Below are positions 48,548 to 62,555 of a stretch of DNA of 64,000 nucleotides, in pieces. Each line of letters begins with the position of its first letter. Position 1 is the stretch's first letter. Made by a program: the position numbers and the translations under genes. The stretch is from Porphyromonas vaginalis (GTDB lineage Bacteria; Bacteroidota; Bacteroidia; Bacteroidales; Porphyromonadaceae): the NCBI RefSeq assembly GCF_958301595.1, contig NZ_CATQJU010000001.1, forward strand, positions 186,001-250,000. Reading direction: 5' to 3'. Under the pieces are notes generated by a model. The model worked only from the letters and a program-made list of their open reading frames with translations. It was not told the origin of the DNA and searched no databases.

Positions 48548-50227
48548 CTAAGATTTGGCCACAGCCTCAGTGATCTCCTCGTAGAGTGCCAAGGCTCGCT
48601 TTTGCGCCTCAGCAAAGGTCGGCAGCACATTCTCCCGCCCCAGCTGATCGATGATACCCGTCTGCTCCAGATGCGTATAGACCGCCGGACGCACGCCACT
48701 CAGCACGACATGCACACCGCGCCTACGCTGTCGTGCCAGTACCATCTGCAGGTTGTGTAGCCCCGTGCTATCGATGAAAGGCACGCGACGCATACGGATG
48801 ATGCGTACCTCCGGATGGTCGTGAACCGTCACCATCACCTCATCAAACTTATTGGCAATGCCAAAGAAAAACGGGCCCTCTACCTCGTAGACCTCCACGC
48901 GATCTGGTAGCTCCAAATGTTCCTCAGCCAGAGGCTCGTCCGTAATCTCCCCCACCCCAATCTGCTCGACCGAGCTCACATCGAGGATGCGACGGAAGAG
49001 TAGCGCGATCGCCAGCAGCATACCCACACCGATCGCCACCGTTAGGTCCGTCAGCACCGTCAGCAGGAAAGTCACCAAGAGGATAACCGTATCCCCTCGA
49101 GGGCCCTTAAAAATCGATACAAAAGAGCGCCAGCCACTCATATTATAAGAGACCACCACCAGCACGCCCGCCAGCACCGCCATCGGTATATGCGCCGTCA
49201 GGGGCGAGAGCAGGAGCATGATCAGCAGGAGCACCACCGCATGGATGATTCCCGCCATGGGAGTCCGTCCACCGCTATTGATATTGGTCATGGTACGAGC
49301 GATAGCCCCCGTCACCGGGATCCCTCCGAAGAACGGCACCACCACATTAGCCACACCCTGACCGATCAATTCGCTGTCAGGATTGTGCTTCGTGCCGATC
49401 ACACCGTCCGCCACCGATGCTGAGAGCAGGCTCTCCATAGCACCCAGTAGCATGATCGTTAGAGCCGAGGGAAAGAGTGCCACGATACGCTCCACCGTGA
49501 TTGTAGGCATGACGAAGGTCGGCAACGCACGCTCTATCGTATAGTTGTCCCCGATATTCTCCGGTCTGAGGTAGCCCAACTGCTGGAGACCAAAGCTAAC
49601 CAGCGTGAGCAGCACCAGCGCCACCAGCGTGCTAGGGATCTTCGCATTAACTTTGGGCAAAAGCCAGATGATCAGTATCGTGCCGACCGCAAAGGCAAAG
49701 GGAATCCACGACGCCGTCGCAAAGTTGGCGATCAGCACCTGCCACTTGCCGATGAAGTCTCCCGGCATCGACTCGATCTGTAGCCCGAAGAGGTCAGCGA
49801 TCTGCGTCGTGAAGATGGTCACGGCGATACCTGCCGTAAAGCCCACGATAATCGGATAAGGAATGAAGCGCACCAGACCACCCAAGCGCAAGAAGCCCAG
49901 CAGCATCAGGAGCAAGCCCGCCATGATCGTCGCAATGGCCAGCCCGTCCAGTCCGTGCTGCTGAATGATCCCGTAGACGATCACGATGAAGGCCCCCGTC
50001 GGCCCCCCGATCTGCACCTTGCTACCGCCCAGTAACGAGACTAGGAAGCCACCGATGATAGCCGTCAGCAACCCCTCCGTCGGTGATACCCCACTGGCGA
50101 TACCGAAGGCGATAGCTAGCGGCAGGGCAACCACCCCGACGATGATACCCGCAGTGAGATCCTTGAGAAAGTCTTGTCGTGAATAACCACGTAGAGAGAG
50201 AAAAAACTCAGGCACGAGTCCCTTCAT
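48548..50227 (-). CDS. SulP-family anion transporter with STAS domain
   Basis: A protein of 559 residues with 10-14 membrane helices: DLTAGIIVGVVALPLAIAFGIASGVSPTEGLLTAIIGGFLVSLLGGSKVQIGGPTGAFIVIV is the usual first part, with GIPVTGAIARTMTNINSGGRTPMAGIIHA later. A STAS domain follows (VYEVEGPFFFGIANKFDEV, IIRMRRVPFIDSTGLHNLQMVL; about residue 440 on). SulP proteins carry sulfate, bicarbonate or dicarboxylates; the substrate is not deducible. An ATG nine bases upstream is also possible. TATCTTTG at 50265-50272 on the minus strand is a likely -7 box. Confidence 0.93.
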   Translation of the reverse strand: MKGLVPEFFLSLRGYSRQDFLKDLTAGIIVGVVALPLAIAFGIASGVSPTEGLLTAIIGGFLVSLLGGSKVQIGGPTGAFIVIVYGIIQQHGLDGLAIATIMAGLLLMLLGFLRLGGLVRFIPYPIIVGFTAGIAVTIFTTQIADLFGLQIESMPGDFIGKWQVLIANFATASWIPFAFAVGTILIIWLLPKVNAKIPSTLVALVLLTLVSFGLQQLGYLRPENIGDNYTIERALPTFVMPTITVERIVALFPSALTIMLLGAMESLLSASVADGVIGTKHNPDSELIGQGVANVVVPFFGGIPVTGAIARTMTNINSGGRTPMAGIIHAVVLLLIMLLLSPLTAHIPMAVLAGVLVVVSYNMSGWRSFVSIFKGPRGDTVILLVTFLLTVLTDLTVAIGVGMLLAIALLFRRILDVSSVEQIGVGEITDEPLAEEHLELPDRVEVYEVEGPFFFGIANKFDEVMVTVHDHPEVRIIRMRRVPFIDSTGLHNLQMVLARQRRRGVHVVLSGVRPAVYTHLEQTGIIDQLGRENVLPTFAEAQKRALALYEEITEAVAKS

Positions 50228-50236
50228 GATAGACAT

Positions 50237-50674
50237 AAGCGTAAGAAAACGATTGGTACTGCTACAAAGATACGAAATTAGAGGTTAGAGGCCAGAAGTT
50301 AGAGGTTAGAGATTCGATCATTCTGACAGCTCCGATGACTCTTGCCTCTAGCTAATTGCTAACAGCTTTCCCAGCACCTCAAAACAAGAATTAGCTGAGC
50401 TTAGGACGAGCAGTATGCATCTCAATAAAGAAATAAAGCGTACCTTTGTGACAAGGATTTTAGATACGTTACAAAGTATGTTTGCCCCACCCCATTTAGT
50501 ATTTGGCAACAAGGGAGCAGCTCACTTACAAAGCTCTCATGCAAGCACTTCTCTTGCTACCAGCAGGAGAAAGGGCGGGGCAACAAACACTCTACACACA
50601 TCTCATCACACACCACAGACGATCTTTCCCCAAGAGAGGTCTCTCCACTCGTCGTATCTTTACTGTAACCCAAT
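50237..50674. other. Divergent intergenic region upstream of the Hsp70 cluster
   Basis: At 50281-50320 lie several TTAGAGGTTAGAG-type words, also seen in the repeats at 8508 and 60790. TACCTTTG at 50441-50448 is a possible -7 box for the rightward cluster, about 230 bases before its first start codon, leaving a long 5' leader. A second weaker match, TATCTTTA, lies at about 50655. No gene is supported here. Confidence 0.5.
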
Positions 50675-51454
50675 ATGCTGAAAAGAGTTTTATCACCCCA
50701 CTTGTTTATTAGGTCTTCCTTTAAGAGGGCTCAGCTGATTAACCAGCTATTTCTAAAAGCAGCAGGAGTCGCTCTATGCACGCTCTCCATGCTCACCCTC
50801 ACCTCTTGCGATAAGAATCATACAGCAGAGTATGAGCGCATTGACAGATCAGACATCGAGGGGTATGAAGCCTTTGTCAGGGAATACCCATCTAGTATAC
50901 ATGTCTCTGATGCTCAAGAGCGAATCCAAGTAGCCAAAGAGGAGATACGGATACGAGAAGAGGAGGAGCGACGTCAAAGAGAAGAGGAGGCGCAGCGAGA
51001 GCAACTATATAGCACCTATGGCTCTAACTCCCTCCACAACGGATCTCAGCCCTACGAAAGCTTTTATGGAAAAAACCATCGCTACTCTAGCGACGAGCCA
51101 CACGCAGAGGTGCGTGTAAAAGCCGCCCACAACTCTGACGTCATTGTGATCATTAGGTATAACAATCAGAATGGACGAGTCGCAGGACACACCTACGTCA
51201 GGGCTGGGCAGACAGCGACTATCCAGCTCCCTGGGGGACACCGCTATCAGACATTCTTCTACTATGGTCGTGGTTGGTATCCAGATAAGCCGATGAAAAA
51301 CGGGGTCAAGGGAGGCTTCTTAGAAGATGAGGCATACTCTAAAGACGGCTCTACGGCACTACTGCAAGATAATGAAATCCTAAGCTTTAAGCTGACACCT
51401 GTACTGGACGGCAACTTCTCTACCTCTCAAAGCAATGAGAGTGAGATATTCTAG
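50675..51454 (+). CDS. Lipoprotein heading the Hsp70/kinase-AAA cluster
   Basis: A 259-residue protein with a long N-region and a lipobox (TLTSC at about residue 46). Next is a TPR-like segment (YEAFVREYPSSIHVSDAQERIQ), a charged helix rich in E and R (about 90-110), and a C-terminal beta domain (RVKAAHNSDVIVIIRYNNQNGRVAGHTYVRAGQTATIQLPGGHRYQTFFYYGRGW). The family is not recognised. Its location in the envelope contrasts with the cytoplasmic Hsp70 downstream. It is 133 bases before the next gene and points the same way, so it is included in the cluster with moderate confidence. Confidence 0.7.
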   Translation: MLKRVLSPHLFIRSSFKRAQLINQLFLKAAGVALCTLSMLTLTSCDKNHTAEYERIDRSDIEGYEAFVREYPSSIHVSDAQERIQVAKEEIRIREEEERRQREEEAQREQLYSTYGSNSLHNGSQPYESFYGKNHRYSSDEPHAEVRVKAAHNSDVIVIIRYNNQNGRVAGHTYVRAGQTATIQLPGGHRYQTFFYYGRGWYPDKPMKNGVKGGFLEDEAYSKDGSTALLQDNEILSFKLTPVLDGNFSTSQSNESEIF

Positions 51455-51494
51455 CCACACGGCATCGACAGCAAGTACTCCAAACATCATCACA

Positions 51495-51557
51495 ATGAAA
51501 AAAACTCTTCATCACCTACTCCTCTCAGCCTTGTCACTGCCTTGGCTCTGGAGCTAA
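51495..51557 (+). pseudogene. Orphan signal-peptide remnant
   Basis: A 20-codon frame, MKKTLHHLLLSALSLPWLWS, reads as a bare signal peptide. In another frame the sequence continues with GAKVGKSYSISLG to a stop at about 51588. This looks like the start of a lost or heavily truncated exported protein. It could also be a real short peptide. Confidence 0.3.
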
Positions 51558-51587
51558 GGTTGGCAAGAGTTACTCTATATCCCTAGG

Positions 51588-53324
51588 ATGAAACAAGTAA
51601 AGCAAAACCCTTATCGACTACTGGGCATCTATGCCAATGCCACGACAAAGGAGCGCTTGGCAAACCAAAGCCGACTGCAAGCCTTCCTAAAGGTAGGCAA
51701 GTCTGTCTCCTTTCCACTTGACCTAACCTCCTACTTAGGAGAGGTCGAGCGCTCTGAGGCTGTCATCGCTACGGCTAGTGCCAATCTAACGCTACCTCAA
51801 GATCAGATACGATACGCCCAGTTTTGGTTTGTTAGAGAGACCCCTATAGACACCATAGCCTTCAACCATCTCGAGAGTGGCGACCTTGTAAAGGCTGTGG
51901 AGATATGGGAGCAACGGGAGACCCCTTCATCGCTCCAAAACCTCATCATCTGCAACCTCATTAGAGAGGAGTATGCTGAGGCTCTCTCCTATGCAGAGAG
52001 ACTCTATGGGAATCGTGAAGCGGTGAGTCACTTCGTAGCACTGATAGTAGGTGACGAGGTGGGGATTGAGTCTGATCACATCGGGCTTGACTTCCTAGAC
52101 GCTCTATGCGAGGAGCTAGGAGGGAGTCGGTTATTACCTTTAGTCTCCAGCCCTGCTTGGCAAGAGCATCTGAAAGAGCATACCGTGGCACCTCTCATCT
52201 CAGCGATCCAAGAGGCTGTTGAGGTAGCACAAAAAGAGCGAAAAGCGAATAACAGCCGTGGAGCTAGCGCAGGCAACACTCTATACAAAAAGAGCAAATC
52301 CCCACTTGCTAAGCTTAAGGAGCTCCTCTCCACTTCCGACACACAGTATCAGTTGATAGCCGATAAGTTAGGGCTAGAGATACTACAATGTTCCATCGAC
52401 TACTACAACGATGCAGATGATGATATAGAGACAGCCAGAGAGACGGCTCGCTTGGCAAAATATGCCAGTAGCATCGTCGTAGGCAAGCTGGCAAAAGATC
52501 GATGCCTGGAGAACCTCCAAATCATCGAAAAGAATATCGAGAGTTTGCCACCCGAAGAGGTTGCCGAGGAGGCTAAGGCTATTATGGGTTACTTGCAAGA
52601 GTTCAACTCACAGCCTAGTAAAATCAATGTTGCAGTAACACTACTCGGGAGCACCCGTCCTCACTTCCAAGCGATCAAGAAGAAGTTGGGAGCAACTAAT
52701 AAGTTCTACCTCAAACTATCTACTAGAGTCGTCAATAGCGCGCTACAAGACATCATCGAGGAGGTCAACTCCGAACAAGAGAAGCTAAAAATGCTCGCAG
52801 AACAGTTCCCCCTAGGTCTACACTCTGCTTTTGGTTCAGACATCATAGCAGATCTTGAAAATATAATGATTCGAGCATGGCGCGCAACGCTCCTTATGGA
52901 CTCCTTTGATATGGAAGAGGAGTTCAAGCGCGAAAAATACTCTCCAAATAGATCTACACTCAAAGACATCTGCCAACAACTCCATATAAATACGAATATC
53001 CTAACTCCTCCATGGGTGACTAGACCGGCATCTCAAAGAGCGACCAGCAGCTCAACACCTCGAAGAGCAACTAGCCCGACACCTCAAACTTCTTTTACCA
53101 AGTCAGAGTCTGAACGAGATTCAAAAGAGCGAGAGAAGAGACTTGATAAACGAATGAAAGCTTTCGGATATGCCATAATATTTGTGGTCTGTGGCACTAT
53201 ACCTTCGATTATGGTTGGACTTATATCCGACCATTCTAATGATAACTCAGGCACTATTACCTTGTCCCTCATATTTCTATGTGCCATCATAGGAGCTTTT
53301 GTTGGGTGGAATAAAGGAAATTAA
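51588..53324 (+). CDS. J-domain-like/TPR protein with C-terminal membrane anchor
   Basis: A 578-residue protein. The first 70 residues, NPYRLLGIYANATTKERLANQSRLQAFLKVGKSVSF, resemble the start of J-domain proteins (the YxLLG...A), but no HPD motif is visible. A long helical region with repeat-like pairs (GDLVKAVEIWEQRETP, EEYAEALSYAERLYGN) follows, then a low-complexity Ser/Thr/Pro stretch (about 485-505). Two membrane helices end the protein (FGYAIIFVVCGTIPSIMVGLI, LSLIFLCAIIGAFVGW). It lies 15 bases before the GrpE-like gene. A co-chaperone role for the Hsp70 is inferred from the neighbourhood and the N-terminal resemblance. Confidence 0.7.
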   Translation: MKQVKQNPYRLLGIYANATTKERLANQSRLQAFLKVGKSVSFPLDLTSYLGEVERSEAVIATASANLTLPQDQIRYAQFWFVRETPIDTIAFNHLESGDLVKAVEIWEQRETPSSLQNLIICNLIREEYAEALSYAERLYGNREAVSHFVALIVGDEVGIESDHIGLDFLDALCEELGGSRLLPLVSSPAWQEHLKEHTVAPLISAIQEAVEVAQKERKANNSRGASAGNTLYKKSKSPLAKLKELLSTSDTQYQLIADKLGLEILQCSIDYYNDADDDIETARETARLAKYASSIVVGKLAKDRCLENLQIIEKNIESLPPEEVAEEAKAIMGYLQEFNSQPSKINVAVTLLGSTRPHFQAIKKKLGATNKFYLKLSTRVVNSALQDIIEEVNSEQEKLKMLAEQFPLGLHSAFGSDIIADLENIMIRAWRATLLMDSFDMEEEFKREKYSPNRSTLKDICQQLHINTNILTPPWVTRPASQRATSSSTPRRATSPTPQTSFTKSESERDSKEREKRLDKRMKAFGYAIIFVVCGTIPSIMVGLISDHSNDNSGTITLSLIFLCAIIGAFVGWNKGN

Positions 53325-53339
53325 CCAGAAACATATAAT

Positions 53340-54329
53340 ATGAAGCGACGTATACTATATTATCTAACCATTGCGATGGGGAGCTTTCTATTGATGAGCT
53401 TTGCACCAATCGCAGAGAACTACAATAGTGAGAGAGCCACAGAGGCTCAGCGTAGTGAGCAGACTAGCGACTCCCTATCTGTCATTACAGAGCTGACGCA
53501 TCGATGCATAGTGCTCGAAGCCCAGCACGCCAAGCTACGAAGGCAACTAACGACGACTGAAAAGCATATGACAGACCTTGCGACTCTGTCACAAACTCTA
53601 CTCAACACTACGACCGCACAGCGGGCTACCATAGACAGTCTGAGAGCAACCTGCAATAGTCTAGAAGTGCAGCTCCAGCAAGACGGAGCGCAGGTGACAC
53701 AAAAGATGGAGGAGGTAGACCGCAGCATAAATAGCAACAAGGCACTCCTACATCAACGCTCTCTGTGGGGCATTGTAATTGCCATAGTGCTAATAGGTGC
53801 TGTCGTGGGGATCGCCTACTGGCTAGCCAGAAGGGTGAAGCGTAGTAGCTCTTCTATCGAGGAGATTCGTAAAGCGCAGCACGCTGTGGAGGCTGCACAG
53901 CAGAGGATGGCAGAGGAGTCTGTCAAGCTAGACAATCAGTTACTCCAGCTGGTCGAGAAGCAACTAGAGACGACAGCCGCAGGAGTAGCGGGATCTGGAG
54001 AGCCTGACCACTCGCTAGTCGTCAAGCTCGCAGATGAGATAGCGCGTATAGAGACGAACCTCTCTAAGATGGACAAGTCTGTCAGAGGTTACAAGCAACT
54101 CGTACAGGCTAAGGATCGAATGATAAACAATGTACGTGCTAACGGCTACGAGATCATTAGCTTGATAGGACAAGAGTACAACGACGGTATGCAGTTTAAG
54201 GCGCGCATGGTGCCAGACGAAACGCTACCCGAGGGTAAGCGCATCATAACGGGTATGATCAAGATGCTCGTCAACTACAACGGCAAGATGATACAGCCTG
54301 CCGAGATAGTGGTAAGTCAAAACATATAA
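53340..54329 (+). CDS. Membrane-anchored coiled-coil protein with GrpE-like C-terminus
   Basis: A 329-residue protein: an N-terminal signal or helix (residues 6-22), a coiled coil (about 40-135), a membrane helix (WGIVIAIVLIGAVVGIAYWLA, 143-163) and a second coiled coil (about 170-265). The C-terminal domain has ANGYEIISLIGQEYNDGMQFKARMVPDETLPEGKRIITGMIKMLVNYNGKMIQPAEIVV. The pattern GYEI..G..Y..GM and MIQPAEVVV resembles the beta domain of GrpE nucleotide exchange factors. If so, the C-terminus would face the cytoplasm and act on the Hsp70 encoded 12 bases downstream, while the first coiled coil is in the periplasm. This is inference. Confidence 0.65.
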   Translation: MKRRILYYLTIAMGSFLLMSFAPIAENYNSERATEAQRSEQTSDSLSVITELTHRCIVLEAQHAKLRRQLTTTEKHMTDLATLSQTLLNTTTAQRATIDSLRATCNSLEVQLQQDGAQVTQKMEEVDRSINSNKALLHQRSLWGIVIAIVLIGAVVGIAYWLARRVKRSSSSIEEIRKAQHAVEAAQQRMAEESVKLDNQLLQLVEKQLETTAAGVAGSGEPDHSLVVKLADEIARIETNLSKMDKSVRGYKQLVQAKDRMINNVRANGYEIISLIGQEYNDGMQFKARMVPDETLPEGKRIITGMIKMLVNYNGKMIQPAEIVVSQNI

Positions 54330-54341
54330 CACGATATAGCT

Positions 54342-56876
54342 ATGGCTAGAATTAAGATTGACTACGGTATAGACTTGGGGACGACAAACTCCGCCATCGC
54401 TCGTATGGAGGGTGGCGAGTCTGTCATCAAGCAGACCAAGACCTTGATGGATACCCTGCCATCATGTGTCTACTTCTCCAAAAACAAGCGTGGAGAGTGT
54501 GCTCTACGCATCGGACTAAAGGCAAAAGATGCTGTTTACTCAGACGCCATTATGGCACTCAGCAAAGATGAGCCTCCCAAGGAGTTTGGCTACCTAGAGT
54601 TCAAGCGGGAGATGGGGTCGGATAAGCAGTACTCCAACGAGAACATGACAAAAGCTTTCTACACACCAGAAGAGCTATCGGCCGAGGTACTCAAGGAGTT
54701 GAAAAGCCTTATCACAGACGAGACAGTAAATGCGATCGTAATCACAGTTCCGGCTATGTTTACCGCAGTCCAAAAGGACGCAACGATGAGAGCAGCTCAT
54801 CTAGCGGGCTTCAATAAGTGCGTATTGCTACAAGAGCCTATAGCAGCTTGTATGGCGTATGGGCTATCTAATGAGAAGAAAGACGGCAAGTGGCTAGTCT
54901 TCGACTTCGGTGGTGGCACTTTTGACGCAGCTCTTGTGAAGGTAGAGGATGGCATCCTCACCGTGTTTGACACTGAGGGAGACAACTACCTAGGAGGCAA
55001 GAACCTCGACGAGATTGTAGTGAACGAGATCTTAATTCCCTCCCTTAAAGAGGAGTATGCACTCGACTCTTACGAGCGTGTACCTTGGAAAAAGAAGGCT
55101 CTAGCCGATGCTCTCAAGGGACCGGCCGAGGAGATGCGTATCGCATTGTCCTTTGCAGACAGTACGGACTACTCTACCTATGACCGCAACCTCAACCTCG
55201 GGGTAGATGACAATGGAGAGGAGATCGACCTGGAGATAACCTTGACAAAGGATGAGCTACTTAACGCCATAGAGGGGCAATACCATAAGGCCATCGACAT
55301 CTGCAAGGATCTACTAACCAGAAACGGCTTGACAGGAGCAGACCTCACCTCGCTGATCCTAGTAGGAGGGCCTACCTACTCGCCCATCATACGCGAGATG
55401 CTCAAGAAGGAGATCACTCCTCACGTAGACACAAGCATCAACCCGATGACTGCCGTAGCTCGAGGAGCTGCGCTCTTTGCCTCTACAATAGATTCAGAGG
55501 TCAATGCTGATGAGGTCAGACGAGAGGCCAAGGCGGAGGTGACCTTCCTTGAGGTAGGCTATGAATCTACCTCTGTTGAAGACTCAGAGTGGGTGACTAT
55601 CACGATTGATAAGGGTAAGAGTGGTGAAAACGCCCCATCTGAGCTACTAGTAGAGTTAGAGCGTGCAGATGGAGCTTGGCGTAGTGACAAGACGAGTGTC
55701 AATGAAAAGGGAAACATCTTTCAGGCTTTTCTGCTAGAGGGTGTAGCAAACACCTTTCATATAAACGCTTTCGACCATCAAGGCAACAAGGTAGAGGTCT
55801 TTCCCGCAGAGTTTACCATTATCCAAGGTGTCAAGGTCGGAGCAGCTCCACTACCTTACAATATCGGCATCTCGGTCTATAACGACATTAAGAAGCGTGG
55901 CGTATTTACCCAAGTCAAGGGCTTGGAAAAGAATAAGTCACTCCCTGCCGTGGGCGTAGTCCTCGGTCGCAAGACGACACAAGCTTTGCGTCCTGGTGTC
56001 GCTGAGGATGTCCTATCTATCCCAGTCTATCAAGCCGCAGGTCTAGAGGCTGAGGGAAAGACCGCTGCGCTAAACTCCCACATAGCAAACGTAGTCGTCA
56101 CTGGCGAGGAGGTACAGCAACTTATCCCCGAGCAGTCTAGTGTGGAGGTCACACTCCACGTAGACTCCTCAGAGATGATGACTATGGAGGTGTATTTCCC
56201 CACAGTAGACTTTACGGTTAAGAAAGAGCTAAACCTCGGTAAGCGTGAGTCTGCGACAGAAGCTATCCAGTGGGTTAAGGAAGAGATACATACGGCTGAG
56301 CGAGCCCTCTCCGATCTCAAAGACTCTGGACTCTCTGTCGATGAGCTAGAGAAGGAGCTTAGCTCCGTAAAAGAGCTACTCTCCAATGGACAAGACCCGA
56401 TGCGCACACTCTCTAATCTGAAAGAGCTACTCCGTAAGATTGAAAACCTAGAGGATAGCTCCGAGTGGGATCGTATCGAGAAGGAACTACGCACAGAGTT
56501 TGAGCGCCTAGAGGTGGCTCAAAACGATCTAGGCGACGAAAAGTCTGGAGAGGTCGTCAAAGAGCTACATCGTCAGGTGGACAATGTGATACGCACCCAA
56601 GACGTAGCTCTAGGGCGCAGTGTCTTAGAGCAAGTCGTGCGGCTCTTTATTCATCTCACGATGGTCTATCAGTGTATGGCTATCATCAAGGATTGTGAGG
56701 CACGCTTTGATCAGATAGCGTGGCGAGATAGGTCACGCGCTCGTCAGCTCATCAACCAAGGCCTCAGCGAGATGAATGACCAGCCCTCTACAGAGCGACT
56801 ACACCCGATCGCCGTCTCACTAATCGACCTGATGCCTAGCGAGGAGGCCACTAATGCTGGTGGACTGCTAAAGTAA
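54342..56876 (+). CDS. Divergent Hsp70-family protein
   Basis: An 844-residue protein with an Hsp70/actin-fold ATPase domain: IDLGTTNS (10-17), FKREMG near 87-92, IVITVPAMF (132-140), VFDFGGGTFDAALV (187-199) and LILVGGPTYSPIIREML. After about residue 400 it departs from DnaK: a beta-rich substrate-like region (KVEVFPAEFTIIQGVKVG) and then a long helical end (about 630-750) with many Glu and Lys. It is far longer than DnaK and is not the housekeeping copy. It lies between the GrpE-like gene and the kinase-AAA gene with 12- and 39-base spacers, and is expected to be the core of the cluster. Client proteins are unknown. Confidence 0.9.
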   Translation: MARIKIDYGIDLGTTNSAIARMEGGESVIKQTKTLMDTLPSCVYFSKNKRGECALRIGLKAKDAVYSDAIMALSKDEPPKEFGYLEFKREMGSDKQYSNENMTKAFYTPEELSAEVLKELKSLITDETVNAIVITVPAMFTAVQKDATMRAAHLAGFNKCVLLQEPIAACMAYGLSNEKKDGKWLVFDFGGGTFDAALVKVEDGILTVFDTEGDNYLGGKNLDEIVVNEILIPSLKEEYALDSYERVPWKKKALADALKGPAEEMRIALSFADSTDYSTYDRNLNLGVDDNGEEIDLEITLTKDELLNAIEGQYHKAIDICKDLLTRNGLTGADLTSLILVGGPTYSPIIREMLKKEITPHVDTSINPMTAVARGAALFASTIDSEVNADEVRREAKAEVTFLEVGYESTSVEDSEWVTITIDKGKSGENAPSELLVELERADGAWRSDKTSVNEKGNIFQAFLLEGVANTFHINAFDHQGNKVEVFPAEFTIIQGVKVGAAPLPYNIGISVYNDIKKRGVFTQVKGLEKNKSLPAVGVVLGRKTTQALRPGVAEDVLSIPVYQAAGLEAEGKTAALNSHIANVVVTGEEVQQLIPEQSSVEVTLHVDSSEMMTMEVYFPTVDFTVKKELNLGKRESATEAIQWVKEEIHTAERALSDLKDSGLSVDELEKELSSVKELLSNGQDPMRTLSNLKELLRKIENLEDSSEWDRIEKELRTEFERLEVAQNDLGDEKSGEVVKELHRQVDNVIRTQDVALGRSVLEQVVRLFIHLTMVYQCMAIIKDCEARFDQIAWRDRSRARQLINQGLSEMNDQPSTERLHPIAVSLIDLMPSEEATNAGGLLK

Positions 56877-56915
56877 AGAGTCCCGAAGCCTAACCCTTAG
56901 TGACAAAAGAGTATT

Positions 56916-58694
56916 ATGCACTTCAAGGCAAAGGAACTGATTGCCCACTACACCGTATTGTTTCCGCATAAGCAAGGAGCTTATGCGGAAACTTACCGAG
57001 TCAAAGACGAGCATGGCAAGACGGGGTTCCTAAAACTAATCGACTGCTCAAAGCTCACAAGAAGGCAACTGGACGACAGCGGGCGTGTCGTAGAGGTAGA
57101 GATCTGCAAAGGCTTACAGCATCACAACCTCTGCACCTGCCGTGAGACTGGAGAGTTGCTCATAGATGGGCGACAGTTCATTTGGTTTGTCACTGAGTTC
57201 GTAAGTGGAGAGACTTTGTCAGATCGGATGATGCGAGAGGAGGACTTCAGCGTATACGCTATCAAGAGCATTGCTCTAGGGGTCCTCTCAGCTCTCGCCT
57301 ACCTACACAGTCAGCCACTCCCCATCATTCACAATGAAGTAACTACGCAAAATGTCCTTCTCAACCTCTTGGGAGATCTAAGGGACTTAAAGTTGATCGA
57401 CTTCGGTCAAGCCTGCTACCTCAATCAGTCTCTCGGAGTGCCCAGAGTGAAAGGGCAAAACCTCTTTTACCTTGCGCCAGAGCGTTTTTCAGGAGTTTGC
57501 TCTGTGCAGTCAGATCTCTACGCTGTCGGAGCCATGGCTTACCACCTTTTATATAGACGGCTTCCGTGGTTTGTCGATGTCTCTAGGCTTAGTGACGCCA
57601 GTGCTGTAGAGAGCTTACTAGAAGAGCGACACAAGCCTCTAGAGCTGCCAAAGATAGAGAAGTATGAGCTTGACGAGCAGTTTGTCAACGTAATAGCCAA
57701 AGCGCTAAGCTATGACGCTGAGGATCGATTCCAAACGGCAGAAGAGTTTGCGAGAGCCATCGAGGGTAAGGTAAAAGTCGAGTCTCCTAGTCAGCGACTA
57801 CAACAATCTCAAGCTGACGAAGCATCAAGACGATCTACTAAGCCTATGCAAGCTAAGGGACTAGGCTTTGCAGCGATAGCCGGGATGGAGGAGCTCAAAC
57901 GACAGATGCTAGAAGAGGTCATAGAGCCACTACACAATCCTGAGAAGTACCACCGCTATGGCGTAACAATACCCAACGGCATGCTCCTCTATGGGCCTCC
58001 TGGCTGTGGCAAGACTTTCTTTGCCAAGCACTTTGCCGAGGAGGTCGGCTTTAACTTTAAGTTTATCACACCAGCCTCCCTAAAGAGTAAGTATGTCAAT
58101 GCGACACAGGAAAATATAGCAGCCCTATTCAAAGAAGCCATAGAGCAAGCCCCCACGATTATCTTCATTGATGAGATGAATGAACTAGTCCCCAATCGAG
58201 ATAATGCAGATGTGCATGAGATGTCCCGAAGTGCAGTCAATGAAATGCTAGCTCAGATGGATCAGACAGGAGAGAAGGGCGTATTTGTGATCGGTGCTAC
58301 CAACTATCCTAACATGATAGACCCCGCCATACTGCGTGCTGGGCGACTAGACAAGAAGTATTACATAGGAGTACCTGACCAGGCCGCTAGGAGCGCACTA
58401 TTTAAGCTTTATCTAGAGAATCGCCCCTACGACTTTGGGCTTGACTACGAGCATCTCGCTAGGCTCACTGAGGGGTACGTCTCTGCTGACATCCAGCTCA
58501 TCGTCAATGATGCCTCAAGAGAAGCCCTACACCAAGAGAGCAAGATTACGATGCAAATACTGGAGGCTACAATTGCTAATACAAAGCCCTCTCTCAGCGA
58601 ACAAGAGCTGAAAAAGTATGAGCAGATCCGAGCTGAAATGGATCGAGAGCTACCACAACAACGAAGTAGACCACGCATAGGATTTAAGGACTAA
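56916..58694 (+). CDS. Protein kinase-like domain fused to an AAA+ ATPase
   Basis: A 592-residue fusion. Residues about 12-285 are a Ser/Thr kinase fold: Gly-loop HKQGAYAETYRVKD, lysine in GFLKLID (Lys40), DFG (162-164) and YLAPER. The HRD motif is changed to HNE (139-141), and the following Lys is Thr, so catalysis may be weak or absent. Residues about 316-560 are an AAA+ domain of the Cdc48/SpoVK type: GPPGCGKT (360-367), TIIFIDE, GATNYP and AILRAGRLDK with arginine-finger candidates. Arg, Lys and Glu-rich sequences link them (about 285-315). The combination suggests that ligand or phosphate sensing controls a remodelling ATPase acting with the Hsp70. Confidence 0.88.
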   Translation: MHFKAKELIAHYTVLFPHKQGAYAETYRVKDEHGKTGFLKLIDCSKLTRRQLDDSGRVVEVEICKGLQHHNLCTCRETGELLIDGRQFIWFVTEFVSGETLSDRMMREEDFSVYAIKSIALGVLSALAYLHSQPLPIIHNEVTTQNVLLNLLGDLRDLKLIDFGQACYLNQSLGVPRVKGQNLFYLAPERFSGVCSVQSDLYAVGAMAYHLLYRRLPWFVDVSRLSDASAVESLLEERHKPLELPKIEKYELDEQFVNVIAKALSYDAEDRFQTAEEFARAIEGKVKVESPSQRLQQSQADEASRRSTKPMQAKGLGFAAIAGMEELKRQMLEEVIEPLHNPEKYHRYGVTIPNGMLLYGPPGCGKTFFAKHFAEEVGFNFKFITPASLKSKYVNATQENIAALFKEAIEQAPTIIFIDEMNELVPNRDNADVHEMSRSAVNEMLAQMDQTGEKGVFVIGATNYPNMIDPAILRAGRLDKKYYIGVPDQAARSALFKLYLENRPYDFGLDYEHLARLTEGYVSADIQLIVNDASREALHQESKITMQILEATIANTKPSLSEQELKKYEQIRAEMDRELPQQRSRPRIGFKD

Positions 58695-58710
58695 GCAATA
58701 GACAGTAACT

Positions 58711-59190
58711 ATGACACTAGCAGAACTATACTTAAAGACCATCTTCAGCTGCATAGCCTGCGATGGTGAGATAGCACCCGAAGAGATTCAAATGGTTAGA
58801 GAGATCTCTCAGGTCGAGGATCTCTTCCAAGGCCTAGACGTAGAGAAGATCATAAACAGCTGGATTGCAGACATCAATGAGATAGGAGCTGTCTTCCTCC
58901 AGAGGTTTCTCAAAGAGATTGACACCGTAGCTATGAGCGATGACGAGCAGTTGACACTGGTCACTCTCGCCTTCAAGGCCATTGAAGCGGACAACGTCAC
59001 TGAGTATGCTGAGATCAAGTTCTTCAAGAAGATCCGCAAGCACCTATCTATCAGTGACGATTATATCTTAGCCACACACCCCGACAAAGAGATCTTTTTA
59101 CTACAAGACATCAATGAGCCAGAGGATCTGACTTGGGATACCAATACGCACTTTGATCTCATAAACATTGAGCAACTAAGCTCTCGTTAA
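58711..59190 (+). CDS. TerB-like protein
   Basis: A 159-residue helical protein opening LAELYLKTIFSCIACDGEIAPEEIQMVREIS, with the acidic DGEIAPEE pattern of the TerB/DjlA family, a second half with TLVTLAFKAIEADNVTEYAEIKFFKKIRKHL, and a short C-terminal tail. The TerB fold binds metal and is often encoded with chaperones and kinases in stress and phage-response clusters. It ends the six-gene run, 16 bases after the kinase-AAA gene. It converges on the next gene, 17 bases away. Confidence 0.8.
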   Translation: MTLAELYLKTIFSCIACDGEIAPEEIQMVREISQVEDLFQGLDVEKIINSWIADINEIGAVFLQRFLKEIDTVAMSDDEQLTLVTLAFKAIEADNVTEYAEIKFFKKIRKHLSISDDYILATHPDKEIFLLQDINEPEDLTWDTNTHFDLINIEQLSSR

Positions 59191-59207
59191 TGTTGCCTTA
59201 AGAATAA

Positions 59208-60392
59208 TTAGTAAGATCGCGGGGAGAGTCGGCGGAGGCGCATCTTGACGCGATGAGCTTGGTGGTGCAGCTGACGCCAGAGACGTTTGTGGAGCGGTAT
59301 CGTTGTGAGACGAGCGATCAGTTGCTCTAGCGGCTCTGCTTCTAGTTGCGCAAAGAAGAGCTGCCGCTTCGGAGGCTCTGCCGCCGTGTGCTCGATAGCA
59401 GGATTGCCCGCTAAGGCACTCGCATAGTTGGTCTCCTGATAGCGACATGGTAGTCCCTCCAGTAGCCTTCGCCCTCGCTCGCTGTGGATCATTACGACAC
59501 TCGTCCCTTTGTCCTCGTCCAGCGCTCGATCTAGGTCGGGGCAGGTGCGCTCCACGCCCCAGTAGTCGCCCAGCGTCAGGTCGCTCTGACTGCGGCCCCC
59601 TTTCGCCATGCAGGCGTAGCAACTAGGACGCAAGTAGAGGTCGTGCAGGAAGCCCCGCATGTAGATATTGTCTCCGTAAAACTGTCGCACGCCGCCCCCT
59701 CCCGTGCTTTGTGCCACAAAGTCATAGCGTCGCCAGCCCGAGAGCGATTTATCGCGAAAGGAGATCCCCGTGATCTCTCCCTGCCCTGCTCGCAGTGTCG
59801 TCAAGTACCTTTGCCACACCATCGGTGAGGGTACGCCGTGGCAGACCACATCGACCGTCGTCAAGTTTTCGTAGGTACGTCCGAGGTAGTGGACCAGCCC
59901 TTTGATCTGACAGGGCGTCCCTGTGAAGAGGACCAGTCGACCCTCTTTGAGAAACTGTTCCGCCTGCCGATAGCTCTCTCCGATACGGCTCTGCAGGTAC
60001 TTACTACCCCTAAAGGGAGCCAGCCCCTCCACCGTCTCCGTGTAGTCGTGACAGACGCCCCAGGTCTCATCAAAGCGCGCCCCAAAGACCACGCCCCCAC
60101 GTCGTAGCGTCTCCTCAGCAAGGAGCGTAAAGAGTCCTCCCGACGAACTCGCCTCGCGGAGCCCTTCGTCGGTAGCACATGCAGCATAGACAGCCTGAGG
60201 CTCACGCGGCGCGTCCAGCTTCATAAAGGGGCAGACTCGCTCACACTTATGGCACTCGATGCAACGATCGGCATCGACGATCGGATAGCCAAAGCCCTCC
60301 TCGTCGCGCTCCAGTCGTATGCACCCCTGGGGGCATACCTGTCGGCACGCTTCGCAGCCACAGCAGCGCCGCTTGTCCTCTATCTGTATCAT
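59208..60392 (-). CDS. FrhB-family iron-sulfur oxidoreductase
   Basis: A 394-residue protein. An N-terminal ferredoxin part has CCGCEACRQVCPQGC and CIECHKCERVCPF, which bind two 4Fe-4S clusters. The F420 hydrogenase beta-subunit (FrhB) N and C domains follow: AVYAACATDEGLREASSSGGLFTLLAEE, GSKYLQSRIG, VLFTGTPCQIKGLVHYLG, VDVVCHGVPSPMVWQRYL and DLTLGDYWGVE. Such proteins commonly accompany polysaccharide biosynthesis genes and probably reduce a flavin or sugar substrate, but none are adjacent here. TAACTTTG at 60417-60424 on the minus strand is a likely -7 box. Confidence 0.9.
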   Translation of the reverse strand: MIQIEDKRRCCGCEACRQVCPQGCIRLERDEEGFGYPIVDADRCIECHKCERVCPFMKLDAPREPQAVYAACATDEGLREASSSGGLFTLLAEETLRRGGVVFGARFDETWGVCHDYTETVEGLAPFRGSKYLQSRIGESYRQAEQFLKEGRLVLFTGTPCQIKGLVHYLGRTYENLTTVDVVCHGVPSPMVWQRYLTTLRAGQGEITGISFRDKSLSGWRRYDFVAQSTGGGGVRQFYGDNIYMRGFLHDLYLRPSCYACMAKGGRSQSDLTLGDYWGVERTCPDLDRALDEDKGTSVVMIHSERGRRLLEGLPCRYQETNYASALAGNPAIEHTAAEPPKRQLFFAQLEAEPLEQLIARLTTIPLHKRLWRQLHHQAHRVKMRLRRLSPRSY

Positions 60393-60477: not shown

Positions 60478-61239
60478 CAGGGCTGACGCATTATAGTCGC
60501 TCTTTTAGGAGCTTCGTATTAGCAACAAGCAAGGAATAGATGAGGAGACTGTTGCAAAAGTCAACAATCTGGACATGTCCAGACTATGCAGAAAGGATAA
60601 AGCGCAAGGCGCTGAGGGTGAGGTCTGAAGGGAGCATACCTCCGTATGTGACCGAAGCCGAATCCCGAAAGCAACACAGCGATGCGCCTTTATGCAATAG
60701 TCTCATGAGGTCACTATATATAATGTGTCCGCCATGGATTAGCTGTTGGCTGTTAGCTATCGAAACCATCGGAGCTATCAGAGTGATCGGATCTCTAACT
60801 TCTAACCTCTAATCTCTAACCTCTAATTATACATATCTTTACGGGGAAATTCGTCCGATCCCCTCCTTTCTCGAATATCCACGTGGAAAATCTCAAATCT
60901 CCACGTGGAAGTTTTTTATTTTCCACGTGGGCGTGAAATAAAACTTCGGAGGAATCAAATGAAACTTCGGAGGAAACGAATGAAACTTCGGAGGAATTTT
61001 TTCTTTCTCACGTGGGTATTTCGAAATATCCACGTGGAAATCACTTTTCCCCGACACGATGCCGTTTTGATATGTAATCGGCTCTAAATTATTGTAGCGA
61101 GCCGACGTTGAATTTGCCCAGCCAAGGGCACTAGCACTACTAGCTAACAGCTAATAGCCAACAGCCAACAGCTACACATCAGCGACAAACGAAAAGTCGA
61201 GAGGTAGATGAGCTCATTGTATATAATGCGTCGGCTCTG
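60478..61239. repeat. ISAs1-end MITE-like units bracketing CACGTG-rich repeat copy C
   Basis: The left unit starts CAGGGCTGACGCATTATA at 60478 and holds the inserted MITE at 60545-60704. Then come CTAACTTCTAACCTCTAATC, ACATATCTTTACGGGG, CTCGAATATCCACGTGG, and 21-bp units (AAACTTCGGAGGAATCAAATG and relatives) in the opposite orientation to copy A. CCACGTGG palindromes and TCTAAATTATTG follow. It ends at 61239 with a degenerate unit reading ATATAATGCGTCGGCTCTG. No gene is supported. Confidence 0.8.
60545..60704. mobile_element. MITE, 160 bp, with 5-bp target duplication ATGAG
   Basis: The ends GAGACTGTTGCAAAAG and TGCAATAGTCTC are imperfect inverted repeats. ATGAG flanks both sides (60540-60544, 60705-60709). 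The empty site AGATGAGGTCACTATATA exists at about 32763, so the insertion is later than the host repeat. The interior matches the element at 21180. Confidence 0.92.
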
Positions 61240-61427: not shown

Positions 61428-62555
61428 ATGAGTATATTCAATCACCTTCTAATGGTCGAAGATCCACGCATAAATCGATGCAAAAAGTTCCCCTTAGGGT
61501 ACATCCTCACAACTGTATTCACGGCTACTATCTCTGGCTGCTCCTCTTGGTATGAAATAGAAGACTACGCAGAAGAGTACAAAGATGATCTAGAGGCTCT
61601 ATATGAGCGTATATCAGGAGAGTCGAGCTCTTGGGGAGTCCCCTCTCACGACACGCTCAATCGCGCCATCAGTCTTCTTGATCCCAAGCAGATAGAGCAA
61701 GTCTACAAAGCCTTTCTAGAGGAAAGCTTTGAGATAACAACTGGCAAGCACATCTGTCTAGATGGTAAGACGATGAGAGGCGTTAAGAAGCTAGACTTTG
61801 ATGCCGACAGCCATTGCGTTACAGCCTTTGACCCCAACCAGCAAGCCTCATTGGCTCAGGTATATATCTCCACTAAGTCGAACGAAATCAATGCCATCAA
61901 AGAGATCCTCAAGGCTCTAGATCTACGAGACACCGTCATCACCATTGACGCTATCGGCACTCAGACCGAGATCGCAAAGGCAGTGGTTGAAAAAGAGGGC
62001 GACTACATACTCCAAGTTAAAGATAATCAGAAGCTAACGAAGGAAGAGGTGCAAAGTTTCTTTTGTCCCCTCTACGATGCTCACATAGTGCATCAAGAAC
62101 AGAAAGACTTTGGTCATGGGCGAATAGAAACACGTACGATGAGTAGCATCGTAGACCCTTTATCTCTAGACCCAGACTCGACTTTAGACAAATGGGACGG
62201 GCTCAAAAGTATCCATATGATGACAAGAGTACGGACGGACAAGAAGACAGATAAGTCCACCAGCGAGACCACCTTCTATATCTCTAGCCTGACAGACGGG
62301 ACAGAAGTTTTCAAGTTGATCCGTGAGCATTGGGCTGTGGAAAACAAGCTTCACTATATGCTGGATATGCTTTTCAGAGAGGACTACTCTACCAAGAGAA
62401 CCCGCAATGCCGCTCAGAACATGAACATTATAAATAAGATAAACCTGACTATCATTCAACGGCTTAAAGACAAGCTCAAAGCCACATCAACGCTGCGCCT
62501 GAGGAAAAAGCTCGCACGTATGACTCCAGAGGAAATCTTCGAAATGGAATTATAA
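61428..62555 (+). CDS. ISAs1-family DDE transposase
   Basis: A 375-residue protein. The N-terminal DDE_Tnp_1-associated region has MVEDPRINRCKKFPLGYILTTVFTATISGCSSWYEIEDYAEEY and GVPSHDTLNRAISLLDP. The catalytic parts are ICLDGKTMRG (Asp), VITIDAIGTQTEIAKAVVEKEGDYILQVKDNQ (Asp) and IREHWAVENKLHYMLDM (Glu). It is full length with all acidic residues, so probably active. The many short units in this window with the same ends could be mobilised by it. Confidence 0.96.
   Translation: MSIFNHLLMVEDPRINRCKKFPLGYILTTVFTATISGCSSWYEIEDYAEEYKDDLEALYERISGESSSWGVPSHDTLNRAISLLDPKQIEQVYKAFLEESFEITTGKHICLDGKTMRGVKKLDFDADSHCVTAFDPNQQASLAQVYISTKSNEINAIKEILKALDLRDTVITIDAIGTQTEIAKAVVEKEGDYILQVKDNQKLTKEEVQSFFCPLYDAHIVHQEQKDFGHGRIETRTMSSIVDPLSLDPDSTLDKWDGLKSIHMMTRVRTDKKTDKSTSETTFYISSLTDGTEVFKLIREHWAVENKLHYMLDMLFREDYSTKRTRNAAQNMNIINKINLTIIQRLKDKLKATSTLRLRKKLARMTPEEIFEMEL

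Follow-up and report, generated by a model that had tools for sequence, protein, structure and literature searches.

Positions 50675–59190 of the 64,000-nucleotide stretch of Porphyromonas vaginalis DNA analysed here (hereafter the window) encode six proteins on one strand. Five of them, a J-like protein, a GrpE-like exchange factor, a large Hsp70, a fusion of a kinase-like lobe with an AAA module and a TerB-like protein, recur together in other genomes. Judged from sequence comparisons, the set appears to be a mobile, self-contained, envelope-linked chaperone cassette, for which defence against phages or invading DNA is the function that we favour with moderate confidence. The six genes lie where the first-pass annotation had placed them and run in one direction; the coordinates of the open reading frames (ORFs) give spacers of 133, 15, 12, 39 and 16 bases along the row, the last four as annotated. 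The genes and their domains are as follows.

50675–51454, + strand: exported lipoprotein gene, an optional part (LTSC lipobox, by eye)
51588–53324, + strand: J-like helical-repeat protein gene, with C-terminal transmembrane segments (ORF)
51606–51833, + strand: putative divergent J-type N-terminal domain, HPD absent (profile comparisons)
53340–54329, + strand: transmembrane GrpE-like exchange factor gene (ORF, predicted structure)
54000–54329, + strand: GrpE-fold domain, residues 221–329, predicted cytoplasmic (predicted structure, profiles)
54342–56876, + strand: large dedicated Hsp70 gene, 844 amino acids (Pfam, motifs, profiles)
56916–58694, + strand: kinase-like lobe and AAA fusion gene (Pfam, motif reading)
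58711–59190, + strand: TerB-like protein gene (sub-threshold Pfam, PDB profile matches)

Conservation and components of the five-gene block

The fusion protein was compared with 84,980 species genomes in a scan that detects close relatives only, and 21 loci were returned. In 15 of them the genes for the J-like protein, the GrpE-like protein, Hsp70, the fusion and TerB are arranged in this order on one strand, in some loci interrupted by one or two extra genes. Among these 15, L041 and L042 are identical but for one base in 12,554, and L044 has a stop codon near the start of the J gene. Outside the 15, TerB is broken in L049; the J, Hsp70 and fusion ORFs are split or shortened in L051, which has no TerB match; L036, L047 and L052 are truncated at contig ends; and L053 matches over the kinase only, at 25%. 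Seven further loci (L054 and L105–L110) were reached via matches of the GrpE-like profile, a plasmid match and the second copy in the genus; L054, L105, L106, L107 and L110 are complete, L108 is a four-gene copy without a TerB match, and L109 is a fragment at a contig edge. Besides the window copy there are 20 complete five-gene copies, two of them nearly identical. The first-pass annotation had proposed a linked cluster, and in relatives the genes are indeed linked, the opposite of the scatter that would speak against one. We judge the shared gene order to be far beyond chance, with the lipoprotein gene outside the conserved block.

Extra genes intrude in some loci at the Hsp70/fusion, J/GrpE-like or fusion/TerB junction, and two of nine scanned intruding or adjacent accessory proteins have Pfam matches above cut-off (DUF6602 and DUF6804). 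Recurrence of the flanks between loci is rare: in mechanical calls of at least 60 amino acids, compared all against all with L004 and L042 left out, 183 of 221 non-core ORFs have no relative. A chance cluster, or a degenerate passenger without a common function, could account for the intrusions at three positions and for the broken copies L049 and L051; however, the same five genes in the same order and on the same strand in 20 complete copies, the mostly unrelated flanks and the correlated divergence of the five proteins across copies make it very improbable. In three loci, one from Prevotella and two from Muribaculaceae, a second and much longer J-like protein (962–1085 amino acids) lies ahead of the block (L038 1997–4885, L045 619–3876 and L051 2620–5553).

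The Hsp70 matches PF00012 (1.3e-62), with its nucleotide-binding domain at residues 9–389, and the motifs DLGTTNS, DFGGGTFD and VGGPT are conserved in nearly all aligned rows. By eye, an inserted beta-rich region of ~120 residues stands ahead of the substrate-binding domain (~519–650), and the C-terminus is helical. The best five PDB matches of the C-terminal profile are Hsp70 substrate domains (E 4.5e-4 to 5e-3). The motifs and matches indicate an intact nucleotide site and a substrate-binding domain.

The GrpE-like protein comprises a signal-like N-terminus, a coiled coil (residues 41–142) predicted to lie outside the membrane, a single transmembrane helix (145–163) and a GrpE domain (221–329), whose fold of helices and a beta head is present in the predicted structure. 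PF01025 is not matched by this protein in Pfam up to E 1, nor is a GrpE model in NCBIfam, and the exchange-factor profile, compared with PDB sequences, finds no GrpE among the best 60 of 267 matches, which are mainly coiled coils. An early profile comparison with a small alignment gave GrpE a probability of 2–5%, and larger alignments improved the match. The GrpE identity is taken from the predicted structure. We propose that the window factor works like GrpE while standing outside PF01025 as strictly defined.

In the J-like protein, hydropathy places transmembrane segments at residues 529–547 and 555–573. The N-terminus matches a J-domain profile weakly (E 1.1e-4 over 63 columns, probability 57%, 0 of 100 shuffles), and smaller early alignments were weaker (29–37%) until larger ones raised the probability. 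No J model matches the window proteins in Pfam up to E 1 or in NCBIfam, and the J profile has no significant match in the PDB sequence search. The predicted structure (Foldseek, VIA) retrieves general helical repeats, with no J domain among the listed matches; the best E is 3.4e-3, and the TPR co-chaperone P58(IPK), at E 0.14–0.28, is not significant. Because the helical bulk dominates the structure search, that search leaves a J domain possible. HPD is absent from the first 120 residues in all 24 J-like sequences, one of them lacking its N-terminus, and we read the protein as having a divergent J-type N-terminus without HPD. The complete chaperone triad of the first-pass annotation is thus retained as an Hsp70, a GrpE-fold factor, a J-like protein and membrane anchors, but with HPD missing the word complete goes too far. 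Four of the six J-like proteins without a predicted transmembrane segment (L044, L045, L047 and L054) end in a GGCYIATM-type tail, perhaps an alternative anchor; the one in L054 is annotated CFI-box-CTERM.

In four Flavobacteriaceae loci, the J-like protein ends in a region that matches the C-terminal domain of the lipoprotein (residues 109–259). The lipoprotein, annotated at first as a cluster member, is an optional part and not core, but its domain is fused to the J-like protein in those four loci. In L174 (813–10891), a protein related to the window lipoprotein is encoded next to a subtilase and to genes of the SrfB and Virul_Fac families, an arrangement suggesting an envelope domain common to different gene systems.

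The fusion matches Pkinase (6.6e-29) and AAA (PF00004, 4.9e-36), with a kinase-like lobe at residues 20–275 and a Cdc48/FtsH-type AAA module at 356–485 followed by a lid. The HRD of the lobe reads HNE in the window copy; its catalytic residue is Glu in 20 of 25 members, the window included, Asp in three and another residue in two. With the catalytic Asp missing in 22 of the 25, most members probably carry the lobe as a pseudokinase. The AAA module has intact Walker A, Walker B, sensor 1 and Arg finger motifs. The annotated kinase-like/AAA+ fusion holds. The TerB-like protein scores 22.1 bits against PF05099, below the cut-off of 24.4, and its PDB profile matches (2h5n, 0.0014; 2ou3, 0.0053) suggest the TerB fold that had been annotated. 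The literature links TerB to stress.

Insertion site and distribution

The full fusion protein is found in two of 26 genomes of the genus, and in the rest of the family the match is AAA-sized only. The GrpE-like profile finds the protein in at least six of 395 genomes of the phylum, the window's own included, a lower bound, with at most six candidates scored per genome. The two copies in the genus are 46–47% identical; a Prevotella copy and the window copy are 70% identical. The insert and its neighbours are as follows, the nearest known-family gene on either side lying on the strand opposite to the block.

50343–59225, no strand assigned: whole insert (alignment to relatives L168, L169 and L170)
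48548–50236, - strand: sulfate-permease gene, left neighbour of the insert (family scan)
59208–60392, - strand: FrhB-family gene, right neighbour of the insert (family scan)

In two near relatives (L168 and L169) the permease and FrhB-family genes are adjacent and the block is absent: the positions that align to window 50335–50342 and 59226–59227 are only 32 and 40 bases apart, so that the window strain has ~8.9 kb which they lack. In a third relative (L170), another cargo, of ~5 kb, occupies the same place; its flank match reaches 50661, so that window 50343–50661 is also present there. In a fourth (G001), both neighbour genes are present, far apart. The FrhB-family gene occurs in only 5 of 26 genus genomes, which limits a judgement of the site to few of them. 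The GC content of the block is 0.48–0.51, against 0.53–0.58 in the preceding 14 kb, and the window has other low-GC stretches. Together these comparisons point to a removable, mobile insert of sporadic distribution.

The cargo of the third relative (L170 3142–8001, genome G025) consists of six ORFs of 106–353 amino acids, of which one matches an aspartyl-protease family and another, weakly, a STAND-like NTPase; with this different cargo, the permease/FrhB site looks like a hot spot for accessory cassettes. Short AGAGGTTAG-type repeats lie at window ~50270–50340, near the left edge of the insert, and again at ~60755–60830, and similar repeats fill the empty site of L169. An intact-looking DDE transposase ORF (PF01609, PF13808) is at 61428–62555, ~2.2 kb past the block.

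A related set occurs in Pseudomonadota, in loci found from a tblastn search of the Hsp70 against plasmids. Here a protein of 114–123 amino acids stands directly ahead of an Hsp70 of ~830–840 amino acids, and this small soluble protein is related to the C-terminus of the GrpE-like protein (profile E 1.1e-8 with 0 of 100 shuffles, and 1.8e-8 in another comparison). Five of six Hsp70s compared with the Bacteroidota profile match near full length, at 1e-97 or better; the sixth, from Aeromonas, is split and matches over its first part. This Aeromonas Hsp70 lies in two ORFs (L115 6989–8626 and 8884–9486), while a Shewanella copy that is 97–99% identical (L138) is uninterrupted. The pair is followed in Vibrio, Aeromonas, Polaromonas, Shewanella and E. 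coli by an AAA protein that matches the AAA half of the fusion and by a protein with a J-like N-terminus; in all of these but Polaromonas a peptidoglycan-binding or transmembrane protein accompanies the set. In Aminobacter and Sinorhizobium a relative of the J-like protein precedes the pair, and no AAA of this kind was seen beside it. L111, L113 and L114 showed no AAA beside their Hsp70; L113 has an AAA gene farther off, without a match to the cassette profile. The J-like N-terminus of these loci matches that of Bacteroidota (E 3.8e-5, probability 71%) and on its own hardly matches a true J domain (E 0.022, 25 columns). The loci suggest that an exchange factor, a large Hsp70 and a J-like protein form the shared core, in most cases together with an AAA. 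The shorter Pseudomonadota relative is found in plasmids, next to Tn7-type genes and, in E. coli, within an island; 2 of 5,426 E. coli genomes match one Aeromonas query, of which HeN100 carries the set (L136 15960–22743) and NH-21 only the part after an IS1.

Defence context and rival readings

Ten named loci (L054, L111–L116, L136, L137 and L138) were read for context. Known defence genes occur in the stretch around four of them: brxL and pglZ (BREX) by annotation in L054 and, confirmed by PADLOC, GajB (Gabija) with a type IIG enzyme in L114, ZorA (Zorya) in L116 and RdrB (RADAR) in L136. L115 and L138 lie directly after Tn7 transposition genes, and L111, L112, L113 and L137 have insertion sequence elements, an integrase, a dptF fragment or nothing telling.

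The core itself appears to match no defence system known to PADLOC 2023. In the window set, matches are limited to those of the fusion (kinase and AAA) and to weak ones with coiled coils (E 0.004 or worse); at 1e-5 no PADLOC family is matched by the J-like proteins of L116 and L136 or by the Hsp70 and the small exchange factor of L116, and the L116 AAA matches the IetA and TRIP13 models. None of the five core proteins has a nuclease, pore, toxin or secretion domain in Pfam. Not one of 178 phage records reaches 80% coverage of the fusion; the 20 listed align around its AAA or kinase part. Four of 126 flank proteins of the Bacteroidota loci match a phage-integrase family (Pfam, a count without a control set).

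Several observations weigh against a role in defence. Four of ten loci is a count without a background rate, and plasmids and islands carry defence genes anyway. Around the window copy, none of 10 neighbouring proteins matches PADLOC at 1e-5, and they belong mostly to housekeeping families, apart from one transposase; among them are ribosome recycling factor, RsgA, an RNB exonuclease, RlmN, the permease, the FrhB-family protein and the DDE transposase. In the flanks of the Bacteroidota loci (up to four genes per side, 120–1200 amino acids; L004, L036 and L042 left out, L052 and L053 unused), 126 proteins matched 107 PADLOC models, against 51 for 126 control proteins, which is the expected direction and not decisive, a weak comparison since the figures count models and not proteins; the control is 126 of 130 proteins from 19 arbitrary stretches, some in the window's own genus. 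IMG/VR viral contigs gave no relative in two scans. The J homology is weak overall (probability 47–57%), with HPD missing. Finally, mobile stress-tolerance islands would look similar. The phage-response role suggested at first, a guess from domain content, is thus backed by the context of relatives, where BREX, Gabija, Zorya and RADAR genes lie close by, but not by the surroundings of the window copy, which lower the defence reading slightly and raise stress tolerance slightly.

The cassette could instead be mobile and confer tolerance to envelope or proteotoxic stress, much as mobile heat-resistance loci do; it would then serve as an additional Hsp70 machine for removing damaged proteins, exported or of the inner membrane, under stress, with no phage role. 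We consider this unlikely, yet the main competitor: a core in which a chaperone, an exchange factor and an AAA motor are joined by no toxic domain in Pfam, membrane anchors with lipoprotein or peptidoglycan-binding partners, housekeeping genes around the window copy and the stress-linked TerB all suit it, whereas the BREX, GajB, ZorA and RdrB genes near four named copies and the rare, patchy presence do not, and an HPD-less J-like protein with a pseudokinase would be more at home in signalling than in bulk folding. It is improbable that the cassette serves contact-dependent or inter-bacterial conflict, protecting against toxins at the envelope or delivering them. This reading could draw on the envelope-facing parts, on the lipoprotein relative beside SrfB- and Virul_Fac-family genes in one genome and on the different cargo at the same insertion site in a relative, but the five core proteins show no toxin or secretion family in Pfam and the flanks rarely recur.

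Defence remains our preferred reading, and the evidence supports that the set is not housekeeping. Both the envelope link and the departure from standard housekeeping, claimed at the outset, are borne out by the membrane anchors, by canonical GrpE and DnaJ genes elsewhere in the same genome and by the patchy, mobile distribution.

Proposed mechanism and comparison with known systems

More tentatively than the defence role, the cassette may represent an as yet undescribed class of immune system present in at least two phyla, in which a membrane-tethered Hsp70 machine senses infection and drives an AAA unfoldase. Equally tentative is the proposal that sensing occurs at the envelope or via the phage protein load, so that chaperone biochemistry is both sensor and weapon. 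The transmembrane exchange factor and the membrane-anchored, HPD-less J-like scaffold would hold the dedicated Hsp70 at the inner membrane. Sensing could take place outside the membrane, via the coiled coil of the exchange factor, the lipoprotein or the J-fused periplasmic domain; alternatively, a burst of phage proteins binding Hsp70 could be the trigger. Either would change nucleotide exchange on Hsp70, after which a client would be passed to the AAA motor and pulled apart, with the pseudokinase and TerB as adaptors or sensors. A phage assembly would be dismantled, or growth arrest activated. Since Pfam finds neither a nuclease nor a pore or toxin domain in the core, the effector step would be the remodelling.

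In the titles and abstract beginnings listed by searches of open-access papers, a scope that leaves out most subscription papers and bioRxiv, no AAA-centred set with a transmembrane GrpE-fold partner is named, nor is this gene set. Chaperone-bearing conflict systems are nonetheless a known kind, as the theme of HSP70, GrpE and DnaJ-fused proteins in GTPase-centred conflict systems indicates in the portion of Kaur et al. 2020 (PMC7159879) that concerns it. The GAP1-N2 version, described there as predominantly in actinobacteria and firmicutes, resembles the cassette in its HSP70, GrpE and DnaJ-domain/TPR protein, its membrane- or peptidoglycan-facing parts and its predicted conflict role. The cassette, in contrast, centres on TerB and an AAA motor, the latter joined in Bacteroidota to a kinase-like lobe, and no GTPase or FNIII family is among the Pfam hits shown for the six window proteins. 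None of six cassette-bearing genomes has a GAP1-N2 match, and on this ground the cassette is not counted among the GAP1-N2 systems; the model matches 1 of 14 control genomes.

The likeness to IetAS lies in the fusion, whose best PADLOC match is the IetA model (3.5e-41); no IetS match is listed by PADLOC for the other five window proteins. As a candidate IetA the fusion was rejected, scoring 126.6 bits with the NCBIfam model against a cut-off of 510. CoCoNuT, in the parts of its description drawn on here (PMC11090510), likewise has an Hsp70 nucleotide-binding and substrate-binding unit in a defence locus, and Ter-type (TerY-P) modules in some types. However, CoCoNuT carries the unit as a fusion with McrB- or McrC-type proteins, and the Walker A-like motifs of the unit are described as degenerate, whereas the cassette Hsp70 is free-standing, with intact motifs and a dedicated exchange factor. 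Like the cassette as we read it, bNACHT25 uses chaperone machinery for sensing phage infection, but according to the relevant portion of PMC12169576 it does so through the host's own DnaJ/DnaK with an NLR-type NTPase and no dedicated Hsp70.

The cassette shares with DnaK–DnaJ–GrpE an Hsp70 with intact nucleotide motifs, a GrpE-fold exchange factor and a putative J-type domain. It differs in its transmembrane exchange factor, a J protein without HPD, the beta insert of its Hsp70 and its sporadic, mobile occurrence. Hsp70 machines count as housekeeping, and GrpE is regarded as soluble; if the proposed reading is true, bacteria reuse a whole chaperone cycle as a signalling or immune device, and the E. 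coli chromosomal copy near a RADAR gene makes the idea testable in a standard laboratory strain.

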